A stretch of DNA of 20,399 bases, taken from IMG/VR virus record IMGVR_UViG_3300030380_003097, positions 1-20,399 of that record, one strand, 5' to 3'. Position numbers and translations under genes: made by a program. How positions within the stretch are numbered: the stretch's first letter is position 1; each line of letters opens with the position of its first letter. A model generated the notes under the pieces. It was not told where the DNA came from and searched no databases. It was given only the letters and a program-made list of their open reading frames with translations. This document shows positions 5,260 through 8,258 of this stretch, in pieces. Source of the DNA: a virus.

Positions 5260-5396
5260 TTTTTAAATTTACTTTTTATGTAATTGTCTTGCACCTCGTC
5301 TTTTTGCTTTACGTATGTTAGATAGGTTAAACAATTATGTACGTTTTTCTTTGCTACTACCTCTAGGTCTAAAAACTTGTTGTCAGCTAGTCTCAT
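5256..5396 (-). CDS. Small hypothetical tail-operon protein, 46 aa
   Basis: This ORF is coupled at both ends by ATGA overlaps, upstream with the 204-residue gene and downstream with the 42-residue membrane ORF. It is soluble and charged, begins MRLADNKFLDLEVVAKKNVH and ends KSKFKK. No domain is recognised. Continuous coupling through four genes makes it more credible than its length alone would. A +1/-1 frameshift product with its neighbour was considered, but I see no slippery heptamer at the junction. Confidence 0.55.
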   Translation of the reverse strand: MRLADNKFLDLEVVAKKNVHNCLTYLTYVKQKDEVQDNYIKSKFKK

Positions 5397-6007
5397 AAAT
5401 GAGTGATACCACCCCCATTGTTTGTTAAAATTGTCTGCGCTGCCTGTTGTACTTTGGTTTCCTGTTGATCCAAAGAGTGAAACGTAGCTTTCAGTAAGTC
5501 GTTTTCTAAATGAAAAAAAAAATTGATAGCGCTAACAGCTACGCTGGCTGGCATATTTAGCATAGCGTCCCACCAGCTGTCGCCTCTATAGTCTTCAATT
5601 TCGTATTTCTTACCTACGCGCTGCGTTACTGGTCTATACAATACAGCCATAGCTTTATGCATTGTTTCCCAGTCGCCTATGTTGTTTTCAATGTCGACAA
5701 ACTCGCCGAAACTTAGGTCGTCTAGTTGAGGTACAAAACCAAATTCAGTACCTCCTAGCTTAAACCTAGTAATTAGTAGCGGTTTTTCTGACAGAGCCTT
5801 ATTCAGCTTGTCTGTTATTTTTTTTATGTCAGAGACTTTGACTTGCAAACTTTCGTCTGTTTTTAAGCCACAAAAAATTTCTAGCATTTTAAGCGCGGCG
5901 TACTCGTCAGTCAGCGTCTCGTCGTCTTGAAACGTTGTAATGAATTTCTGGTATTGATGTAGGGGTATGTCGTATAGCGACGTTGGTACTCGAATATCTA
6001 GTTTCAT
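5393..6007 (-). CDS. Putative tail assembly chaperone-like protein, 204 aa
   Basis: This is the first gene of the tail operon, about 50 bases after a terminator. It is a soluble, mostly helical acidic protein starting MKLDIRVPTSLYDIPLHQYQ. Conserved-looking aromatic positions include YEIEDYRGDSWWDAMLNMPA (about 136-155) and a helix with AINFFFHLENDLL. Proteins of this length placed before the tape-measure gene are often tail assembly chaperones, but those are usually closer to the tape-measure start, so the call is tentative. The C-terminus is Gln/Thr-rich and ends GGGITHL. The start at ATG 6007 follows an AT-rich leader without a Shine-Dalgarno sequence. Confidence 0.45.
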   Translation of the reverse strand: MKLDIRVPTSLYDIPLHQYQKFITTFQDDETLTDEYAALKMLEIFCGLKTDESLQVKVSDIKKITDKLNKALSEKPLLITRFKLGGTEFGFVPQLDDLSFGEFVDIENNIGDWETMHKAMAVLYRPVTQRVGKKYEIEDYRGDSWWDAMLNMPASVAVSAINFFFHLENDLLKATFHSLDQQETKVQQAAQTILTNNGGGITHL

Positions 6008-6055: not shown

Positions 6056-6080
6056 AAAAAAAGGCAGCCGTTAAGCTGCC
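6056..6080 (-). terminator. Intrinsic terminator before the tail operon
   Basis: A perfect six-base stem GGCAGC / GCTGCC (6063-6068 and 6075-6080) encloses a six-base loop. On the minus strand it is followed by seven T residues (6062-6056). It ends the transcript carrying the 59-residue ORF and the noncoding region above it, and separates them from the tail operon. Confidence 0.88.
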
Positions 6081-6108
6081 CCTAAAATTCAAACCAAAAA
6101 AAATGAAT

Positions 6109-6288
6109 TTACGCGTTTTCTGGGTTTGCGTGTTCTACTGTCTTGTTTGCCCTCTGGCGTATTTGTAATTGCTCTAGAGCTAGTCTAGACCTAAACAAAT
6201 TGCTTTCGGCTTTTTTTAGTTGTTCAGAGTAATACTCTACTTCAAACTCTGCGTCTTTAATTAGAGCGCTGTAGTCATAATTTTCCAT
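6109..6288 (-). CDS. Small charged helical protein, 59 aa
   Basis: ATG at 6288 and TAA at 6111-6109. The peptide is highly charged and predicted helical: it begins MENYDYSALIKDAEFEVEYY and continues with Leu-spaced Glu/Gln/Arg segments (LALEQLQIRQRANK) that suggest a short coiled coil. It is the only ORF in a transcript bounded by a promoter candidate at about 6600 and the terminator at 6056-6080, preceded by some 290 bases of noncoding sequence. No family is recognised. The long leader suggests that its expression may be controlled at the RNA level. Confidence 0.6.
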   Translation of the reverse strand: MENYDYSALIKDAEFEVEYYSEQLKKAESNLFRSRLALEQLQIRQRANKTVEHANPENA

Positions 6289-6580
6289 TATATCGTATTT
6301 TAATTAACTAGCCATATTTAGTAGTTAACGTCGCTCGCCTGGCTAGTTTAGGCTTGACGGCTATTTTTCGTATAGCTACGGTTTTCAGTCTTACTGTCCG
6401 CCCTTAACAAATTAAAAACAGTAAAAGAGCCTACATTTTTGTCAGCTTACTACTTGCGCTCGCTTATGCACCCTGTGCCTTTTTCTCTAGTGTCCTTTGT
6501 ATCTAGTTACTCATAGGCGGTATACATTCGGCTACCCTCGCTTTACTCGTTTCTAATTATTATGTTAAAGAGCGTTTGTA
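6289..6580 (-). ncRNA. Candidate structured noncoding RNA or long leader
   Basis: About 290 bases hold no ORF worth calling on either strand. Several inverted repeats are visible. A nine-base stem AACTAGCCA / TGGCTAGTT lies at 6306-6314 and 6340-6348. A seven-base stem TTACTGT / ACAGTAA lies at 6391-6397 and 6418-6424. GCTAT / ATAGC lies at 6360-6364 and 6372-6376, and GCAC / GTGC at 6468-6471 and 6475-6478. The loop of the seven-base hairpin can also pair with distant segments: minus-strand UGUUAAGGG with UCUUUAACA near 6560-6568, and GGCGG with CCGCC near 6516-6520. This hints at a pseudoknot. A promoter candidate lies just upstream. I could not match it to tmRNA, RNase P, 6S RNA or a group I intron. 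A packaging or origin site is an alternative. Confidence 0.4.
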
Positions 6581-6583
6581 CTA

Positions 6584-6615
6584 CAAATATAATAAAAATT
6601 TAGTTATCTACTAAA
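6584..6615 (-). promoter_or_regulatory. Bacteroidota-type promoter candidate for the noncoding region
   Basis: On the minus strand, TATATTTG (6591-6584) matches the Bacteroidota -7 box TAnnTTTG exactly. TTTA (6615-6612), one mismatch from the -33 box TTTG, lies 20 bases upstream. Transcription would start near 6577, immediately before the noncoding region. The upstream part abuts the stop of the methyltransferase gene. Confidence 0.45.
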
Positions 6616-6617
6616 TG

Positions 6618-7058
6618 TTAATAAATGACAGGTAGCGCATTTTCTTTACGTAATACGCAAACCATGCTAGGACGCATAGCTGAATTGTTATTTGTTTCTG
6701 TGTCGTCGTTTTGAAATTTAAGTCTGCCTTTAATAAAACGTAACTCCGCTATATTGTATAGGTAGTTATGAAACCAGCGAGTATCTGTATTTGTAAAAAG
6801 TAAAAAAACACAAACCTCGGCTTTTTTGTAGTATAGCTCATGGTGCGCCTTTTTTAAAAAACCAATAATTTTACTATATGGCGGATTAACATAATTTCTT
6901 AAACCCCAGTCGCAAGCTAAACCGTCAAACTCTGACATGTAAGGACAAGGATCAAAGTCGAAATTAAACTCGCTGTCTAGTTTGTTGTATATGCCTATAG
7001 GCGTGCGCCAGTTGTCAGTCTGTTTGCTAGAGAATAATTGTATTTGCTGTTTATTCAT
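6618..7058 (-). CDS. dam: Dam-family DNA N6-adenine methyltransferase, 146 aa
   Basis: This enzyme would transfer a methyl group from S-adenosylmethionine to the N6 of adenine in DNA. The sequence fits the short phage Dam family (PF05869). An N-terminal NWRTP (about 16-20) is followed by FNFDFDPCP (about 31-39), then the catalytic NPPYS motif (about 58-62). A KAHHE helix follows, then FLLFTNTDTRWFH and IKGRLKF, all in the usual order and at roughly the normal length. Its target is probably GATC, but that is family inference. It lies directly after the large terminase gene. A phage may use it to protect its DNA from host restriction or to mark DNA for packaging or replication. The window itself has few GATC sites. 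Confidence 0.85.
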   Translation of the reverse strand: MNKQQIQLFSSKQTDNWRTPIGIYNKLDSEFNFDFDPCPYMSEFDGLACDWGLRNYVNPPYSKIIGFLKKAHHELYYKKAEVCVFLLFTNTDTRWFHNYLYNIAELRFIKGRLKFQNDDTETNNNSAMRPSMVCVLRKENALPVIY

Positions 7059-7085: not shown

Positions 7086-8258
7086 CTATCTAATTGCGTA
7101 TCTAGCAACGTTCGGTCTAGATAGCTTTGTAAATATCGAGTATCTGGTCGCGTCAATGCTATGGTCGTTTTTCGGCTCTGGCTTGTTTAGTAGCATGCCG
7201 TTTTTGTCTTCTAGCCATTTGTAGTTTCTAAACTCTTGTATAGTGTTTGTGCTGCGGCTTGTAACAAAAATGTTATAACGTTTCATTAAGTCAATTCCCA
7301 TTAGAATACTGTCTTTGCCTTTTGTCGCTGGCTTGCAATTCCAGCCGAAACGATGCAGCTCGTCAATACTCTTTGGCTCGGCGTTGTCTGCAAAAATTTC
7401 GTCGTTTCGCTTTATGCCTAGCTCTTGTAGTTTGTTATGTATGTCGCGGTTTGTCATTCCATACTGGTAAAACTCTTCGTCTATATATAGGTTGTTGTCT
7501 AGTAGGTAGGTTGCCACCTGGCAGCTAGGATCATTTACAAACCCCCAGTCTAGACCGCGCGCAATTAGCTTGGCTCGCTCTGGTATTTTGTCGCATTCGT
7601 TAAACTTAAAAACGGTTGCTCGGTTGCGTCCGACTTGCCCTAGACCATAGACGCGCCAGTAGTCTTCGTCAGTTTCTTTTAACCGCTCTATTTCGTCTAC
7701 TAGGCTTTGCTCTAAAAATTTGTTGTCTTTGTATGTAGTGATATGAAACGCTGCGTCGTCGCGTGTTTTTATTCTAGTGTATATGTAGCTGTACTCGTCG
7801 CTGGGGTTGTAGTCTAGTATTATAGACGGCGCGCCAGGTGTACCTACTGTCCGAAACAAAACTTGACTGTAAGAGCTGTAGCTAAATTCGTTTGCCTCGT
7901 TTAGAAATGCGATGTTACGTTTGCGACCTTTCAACCTGGACGCCTGGTCTATGCTTACAAATTCAAATAGGTTTCCGTTTAGTCTGTACTCGCTGTTGCT
8001 CTTGTTATGGTTTGCCTCGTTGTATAGGTCGTACTTATTTAGTATGTCGAAAAAGTCGCGCATGACAGTTGCGCGTAAGGCTGGGTAGGTTGCTCTGAAA
8101 ATGGTTATAGTCTTATTGCTATACTTTTGACAATAGGAAAATATAAGCCATAGCAAAGTATTGTAGGTTTTGCCAGACCGCGTACCGCCTTGCATAATGA
8201 CAATTTTTTTGTCTGTATGCTCTAGGTGTTTCCAAACTATGTTTGTTTCTATTTGCAA
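7086..8258 (-). CDS. terL: Terminase large subunit
   Basis: This is the ATP-driven motor and nuclease that cuts concatemeric DNA and packages it into the prohead. The ATPase domain has Walker A GGTRSGKT (24-31), a Walker B strand IAFLNE ending in the likely catalytic Glu121, and a coupling motif ILDYNPS (147-153). The C-terminal RNase H-like nuclease has its acidic residues at Asp237 (GLDWGF), Asp291 (ADNAEP) and Asp366/Asp369 (NDHSIDATRY). The pattern matches the PBSX-type Terminase_3 family, and 390 residues is close to normal. The apparent start is TTG at 8258. The frame is open further upstream, but the alignment of residues 2-30 with family N-termini favours this start. The start lies just downstream of the stop of the Cys-rich 54-residue ORF. 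Confidence 0.95.
   Translation of the reverse strand: MQIETNIVWKHLEHTDKKIVIMQGGTRSGKTYNTLLWLIFSYCQKYSNKTITIFRATYPALRATVMRDFFDILNKYDLYNEANHNKSNSEYRLNGNLFEFVSIDQASRLKGRKRNIAFLNEANEFSYSSYSQVLFRTVGTPGAPSIILDYNPSDEYSYIYTRIKTRDDAAFHITTYKDNKFLEQSLVDEIERLKETDEDYWRVYGLGQVGRNRATVFKFNECDKIPERAKLIARGLDWGFVNDPSCQVATYLLDNNLYIDEEFYQYGMTNRDIHNKLQELGIKRNDEIFADNAEPKSIDELHRFGWNCKPATKGKDSILMGIDLMKRYNIFVTSRSTNTIQEFRNYKWLEDKNGMLLNKPEPKNDHSIDATRYSIFTKLSRPNVARYAIR

Follow-up and report, generated by a model that had tools for sequence, protein, structure and literature searches.

Several described systems share features with the locus presented here. Morons are phage accessory genes with their own promoter and terminator. 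The SAM-II and preQ1 riboswitches have an H-type pseudoknot architecture near the start codon, and the ompA and T4 gene 32 mRNAs carry stabilising hairpins in their 5' leaders. Phages also encode structured noncoding RNAs of unknown or partly known role, such as the T4 stable RNAs, GOLLD and ROOL, sometimes beside tRNA-like RNAs.

The window, i.e. the whole viral stretch of 20,399 nucleotides that was analysed (part of the 21.4-kb IMG/VR record IMGVR_UViG_3300030380_003097), holds a locus that resembles each of these systems in part. As with morons, a self-contained unit is inserted between two phage genes and is missing in relatives, but here a long, modular, structured leader separates promoter and gene. 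A compact pseudoknot lies in the 5' leader close to the start codon, as in SAM-II and preQ1, whereas no Rfam match and no metabolic gene downstream were found, and the units are exchanged among phages with changing ORFs. Like the T4 stable RNAs, GOLLD and ROOL, the elements are structured phage noncoding RNAs, sometimes next to tRNA-like ones; they differ in being smaller, lacking an Rfam match, standing directly before a small ORF and being built from exchangeable parts. Structure near the mRNA 5' end is shared with the ompA and T4 gene 32 leaders, yet conserved internal motifs and recombining domains take the place of a simple hairpin.

The minus-strand gene order is TerS, TerL, a Dam-type methyltransferase, the promoter, a gene-free stretch of about 290 nt, ORF59, a terminator and the phrog_32199 gene. 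The features are as follows:

7086..8258, minus strand: terminase large subunit (TerL), by profile matches; left border of the accessory slot
6618..7058, minus strand: Dam-type DNA methyltransferase (Pfam PF05869), accessory gene upstream of the RNA unit
6584..6615, minus strand: promoter, with TTTA at 6615-6612, -7 box TATATTTG at 6591-6584 and predicted RNA start at about 6579
6109..6288, minus strand: ORF59, a small coding gene with homologues in many relatives
6060..6083, minus strand: intrinsic terminator, 10 pairs followed by a T run
5393..6007, minus strand: gene without assigned function (PHROG phrog_32199); right border of the slot

An earlier sequence-only reading had placed a promoter-led, structured noncoding transcript between a methyltransferase and a tail gene. 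The methyltransferase is confirmed by a Pfam Dam match (E 4.7e-22). The downstream gene is present (5393-6007), but its sole match is a PHROG of unknown function, so the tail role is unproven. Consistent with the view that some 330 bases lack a credible gene, the minus strand of 6289-6577 contains no ORF of at least 50 aa. The terminator expected after the 59-residue ORF at 6056-6080 was found at 6083-6060, and a terminator-like hairpin occupies the same place in relatives. With its own promoter and terminator, both recognised from sequence, and its absence in relatives, the unit is of the moron type. ORF59 gave no Pfam, PHROG or PADLOC match, and a tRNA/tmRNA search of the window found none. 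The accessory methyltransferase is itself swapped among relatives: Dam in the window, a C5-methylase-matching protein in L003 (4687-5319) and, in L084, a gene similar to that of L003 in place of Dam.

The proposed promoter box, with TTTA 20 nt upstream, is present on the minus strand where it had been placed. TATATTTG fits the flavobacterial sigma-A consensus TAnnTTTG (PMC6847099, PMC9723704), for which a box-to-start distance of 4-5 nt has been described (PMC6847099). Among relatives, the arrays have a sigma-A-type box, TATATTTG, or else TATATTGC/T, which resembles motif SM5 (TAnnTTGY) of Flavobacterium psychrophilum (PMC9723704). Across 61 related intervals, the boxes TATATTTG/TATATTGC/TATATTGT occur 46 times, against 7.9 expected. 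Both promoter types are seen in the window, TATATTGC before the Dam gene (7085-7059) and TATATTTG before the RNA unit (6591-6584); in many relatives the RNA unit has a TATATTGC box instead. A 14-nt inverted repeat joins the promoter region (6603-6616) and the linker of module B (6316-6329). It was judged by eye to be chance, because the promoter arm differs in relatives such as L003.

Relatives of TerL in species genomes were located on five contigs (two Winogradskyella, a Flavobacteriaceae, a Bacteroidetes and an Epsilonproteobacteria metagenome-assembled bin), from which we infer that the host is probably a member of the marine Flavobacteriia. Translation initiation in Flavobacterium is tuned by structure between -20 and +20, and the likely hosts lack Shine-Dalgarno sequences (PMC6847099).

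The single-sequence folding energy of the region is ordinary (z -0.80, with 40 of 200 shuffles equally good), so stems drawn from one sequence prove little and the case rests on relatives. Flanking-protein scans yielded 151 new loci. The TerL-to-next-gene intervals comprised 88 different sequences, or 61 after dereplication and removal of gaps of 100 bases or less. Folds were examined for modules A and B of the modules A-J described below. These two separate RNA modules make up the gene-free stretch between promoter and ORF59 in the window. Module A consists of:

6411..6557, minus strand (6574-6399 including the outer clasp): RNA module A, by homologues and covariation; the homologous stretch in relatives is 6560-6409
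6557-6537 with 6429-6411, minus strand: closing stem P1, 9+6+3 bp, with covariation
6527-6523 with 6470-6466, minus strand: P2
6518-6515 with 6480-6477, minus strand: P3
6506-6503 with 6490-6487, minus strand: P4, CUAG/CUAG
6564..6574, minus strand: 5' strand of the outer clasp P0, CGCUCUUUAAC, pairing with 6408-6399
6399..6408, minus strand: 3' strand of the outer clasp P0, GUUAAGGGCG, pairing with 6574-6564

Homologues of module A are present in L093, L050, L164/L166 and L053, and the core alone also in L168. A covariance model (R2) scored the copies at 106-179 bits, followed by L168 at 30 and noise at 19. The conserved segments are GGUAGCC, GUAACUAGAUAC...GACACUAG and GCGAGCGCAAGUAGUAAGC. 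With strands picked by hand, none of the 720 permutations surpassed the energy of the closing stem's own pairing, and the own pairing of P2 ranked 2 of 120. In the alignment, 7 pairs changed on both sides, against 1.7 in shuffles that preserve column make-up and not the tree. The hand-picked strands of the outer clasp likewise gave the best of 720 permutations over six loci (the window, L027, L007, L168, L015 and L087). Its 5' leader is shared (ACGCUCUUUAACA and close variants), while the 3' partners differ and stand behind different modules. A search for core variants with an altered CUAG helix returned, beyond the known copies, only chance-looking stretches; P4 is therefore invariant and offers no covariation test. 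The core pattern had 0 matches in 84,980 species genomes. In L168, a 79.9-kb viral contig, a permuted tmRNA (RF04321, 3241-3385) lies about 2 kb from the leader core resembling module A.

Module B, closer to the ORF, consists of:

6306..6394, minus strand: RNA module B, by homologues and covariation; the homologous stretch in relatives is 6394-6290
6376-6372/6364-6360, minus strand: hairpin P1, GCUAU/AUAGC
6359-6356/6332-6329, minus strand: P2, CGUC/GACG, part of an interrupted first stem
6353-6350/6340-6337, minus strand: P3, GCCU/AGGC, part of the same interrupted stem
6348-6341/6313-6306, minus strand: pseudoknot of 8 bp, loop AACUAGCC with downstream GGCUAGUU
6304..6315, minus strand: mini-ORF AUG GCU AGU UAA, overlapping the 3' strand of the knot and in frame with ORF59
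6289..6305, minus strand: A-rich translation initiation region AATTAAAATACGATATA, with a similar sequence in the RNA-less L084

Module B was found in about a dozen contigs (11 distinct sequences); its covariance model (R1) gave 78-127 bits for these copies and nothing else up to E = 1. Judged by covariation, module B is an H-type pseudoknot. The knot strands read AAGGCGUG/CACGCCUU in L029 and AGCCAAAC/GUUUGGUU in L003, and with hand-picked strands the own pairing reached 7.4 of 8, compared with 6.1 across sequences (permutation p 0.0005). In an unadjusted MAFFT alignment, 93.1% of cells pair, against 82.1% in shuffles and at most 42% with slid partners. Double-sided changes numbered 23, where controls preserving column make-up and not the tree gave 9.0. 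The 3' end of the pseudoknot stands 16-18 nt before the ATG in 11/11 copies. The three-codon mini-ORF, with its AUG at the edge of the pseudoknot strand, occurs in 8/11 copies, perhaps as a by-product of the knot; in L005 it lacks the stop codon and prolongs the ORF.

The stems of 9, 7, 5 and 4 bp read earlier from the single sequence proved real, as a closing stem of 9+6+3 bp, a pseudoknot of 8 bp and stems of 4-5 bp. The loop thought to pair with a distant segment is that of the B pseudoknot (6348-6341/6313-6306), which covariation supports. Covariation in relatives, the check put forward with that reading, is present in the module A stem, the clasp and the B pseudoknot. The description of a structured noncoding RNA that has its own promoter, precedes a small ORF and a terminator and may be that ORF's leader is supported by covariation, modularity and the fixed position relative to the start codon; the single RNA gives way to two independently exchanged modules, and the transcript is predicted.

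That the region matches no known RNA was borne out by the Rfam covariance models, with 0 matches above gathering score in the whole window. At E up to 5, the best match on the region was L20_leader at 20.9 bits (cut-off 58.7), carried by the terminator hairpin; the permissive L20_leader and snR36 matches were rejected as chance or terminator. A nucleotide search of cultured phages returned only chance matches of 25-34 nt, and the titles and abstracts of the open-access literature contained no description of these modules that we could find. Judged by Rfam, these modules represent new RNA families; their general kind, a structured leader or noncoding RNA of phages within a moron-like unit, is known.

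Among relatives, the slot holds at least 10 noncoding modules (A-J) in various combinations: A-B, E-B, H-B, A-C, C-D, A-C-I-D, C-I-D-J, J, G and none. Compared with the window, L003 has 95.6% identical TerL DNA and 92.8% identical ORF59 and lacks module A, and its module B is 74% identical; in L008, TerL DNA is 84.9% and module B 90.6% identical. By these identities, exchange of module B is uncoupled from its flanking DNA. One module may stand before different ORFs, and one ORF may follow different modules or none. The modules are also dispensable: L084, with a 96% identical TerL protein, has a short leader only, L026/L032 lack the RNA modules, and many relatives with TerL at about 57% have a gap of only about 30-50 nt. 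In the Nonlabens phages P12024S/L, the sole cultured phages found carrying the next gene, this homologue of the 5393-6007 gene overlaps TerL. Since A or both modules are missing in relatives and the flanking genes overlap in P12024S/L, the whole unit is an accessory insert.

Several other modules were observed in these intervals. Module D is tRNA-like, with three loci above the Rfam tRNA cut-off and a fourth in a separate scan; its D-arm and T-arm are normal, the acceptor has five pairs and the anticodon arm is enlarged by about 50 nt. It lies in leaders of small ORFs at L050:4611-4731, L099:7282-7401 and L040:1545-1660. A second tRNA-like element in the same slot (L048:2137-2320) has, read by eye, a T-arm UUCGAGU and an acceptor of 6-7 bp, along with several extra hairpins; Rfam did not recognise it. 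Module G (L027:5435-5743) is a clasp-closed noncoding element of about 310 nt, seen in one copy. Module F, of 185 nt (L007:5734-5918, L083:6588-6772), sits between the small ORF and the terminator and is the only module outside the 5' leader.

The position of the modules is constant. In 38 distinct arrays, a promoter box lies within 75 nt upstream in 28, compared with 5.5% at random positions. An ORF start follows within 100 nt in 37/38, a loose measure that is weak alone, as random positions reach 50%. The spacing to the ORF, counted from the model end, is set by the last module: 1 nt for B in nearly all cases, mostly 24-28 for D and 44-45 for J. Modules C and J are found elsewhere as well: C some 5-6 kb upstream of TerL, where phages have their slot nearly empty, and J in phages with a TerL of just 28-32% identity. 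At these other sites, both immediately follow a flavobacterial-type promoter box and precede different, unrelated ORFs.

Our preferred reading, held with moderate confidence, is that the modules are mobile parts of 5' leaders that influence, in cis, the translation of accessory ORFs or the stability of their mRNAs. In this view, the region would be the 5' leader of a transcription unit with a single accessory gene, inserted between TerL and the next gene; the leader would combine the clasp-closed domain A, toward the 5' end, with the H-type pseudoknot B right before the translation start. Module A, as a 5'-terminal closed domain, would protect or position the mRNA. The B knot, beside an A-rich initiation region free of Shine-Dalgarno sequence, would set or switch translation of ORF59; the knot could act constitutively or as a switch that responds to a ligand or a protein, and ribosomes on the mini-ORF would open it. 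A cis role is favoured by the constant position, at the head of an mRNA and adjoining the initiation region, given hosts in which structure tunes initiation. Since modules and ORFs are unmatched, with the same module before different ORFs and the same ORF behind other modules or none, a dedicated sensor for one gene is not indicated.

The tRNA-like module D and module F behind the ORF count against cis action, as they fit excised, trans-acting RNAs better. The main rival, a serious though more tentative reading, sees the modules as stable RNAs that would work in trans, whether as decoys, as mimics or as regulators of host or defence factors, after being processed from the 5' part of the transcript; the small ORFs would be co-expressed accessory genes. 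The fast exchange of modules irrespective of flanking DNA (module B at 74% against TerL DNA 95.6% in L003, 90.6% against 84.9% in L008), the combinatorial arrays, the clasp-closed domains, the enlarged anticodon arm of the tRNA-like module and the adjoining methyltransferase genes would all suit such RNAs. Against this, we found no unit consisting of RNA alone; in almost every case, unrelated phages included, a fixed distance separates the end of the modules from an ORF; and none of five small ORFs tested had a PADLOC match. A narrower version, which we hold rather more doubtful, is a combinatorial RNA island of marine flavobacterial phages, in which swapped clasp-closed cassettes, a tRNA mimic included, would act in trans against host or defence factors and the promoter-leader position would be an expression site only.

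A translational riboswitch, with module B (or A) masking or exposing the initiation region upon binding a small ligand, is unlikely. The conserved H-type pseudoknot at a fixed distance from the start codon and the conserved unpaired segments would agree with it, but no Rfam riboswitch matched, and no consistent class of regulated genes emerges: the ORFs behind the same module differ, and those tested belong to no metabolic family. A type III toxin-antitoxin RNA (ToxI-like) was also considered and rejected; there is no tandem array, only one 12-nt two-copy repeat, and ORF59 matches no toxin family.

The DNA packaging (cos/pac) site, packaging RNA or replication origin that the sequence-only reading had offered as alternatives would accord with the nearby terminase genes but is highly improbable. 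The modules are absent or replaced in close relatives (L084, L026/L032), and the narrow gaps or overlapping genes of other relatives, including P12024S/L, leave such a site no place, on which grounds the packaging-site and origin readings are rejected. In addition, some of the compensatory changes yield G-U pairs, a sign of RNA. A decayed gene or unstructured spacer, for which the ordinary folding energy (z -0.8) might speak, is equally implausible given homology over several phage lineages with compensatory changes and a transcribed strand without an ORF of at least 50 aa.

Overall, one accessory slot, together with some other sites, repeatedly carries members of a set of at least 10 noncoding modules, as a rule placed between a flavobacterial promoter and a small ORF; covariation is demonstrated for two of them, and one is tRNA-like. 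Acting in cis, they would serve phages as interchangeable expression parts for accessory genes in hosts that lack Shine-Dalgarno sequences; acting in trans, they would form an RNA-based accessory arsenal.
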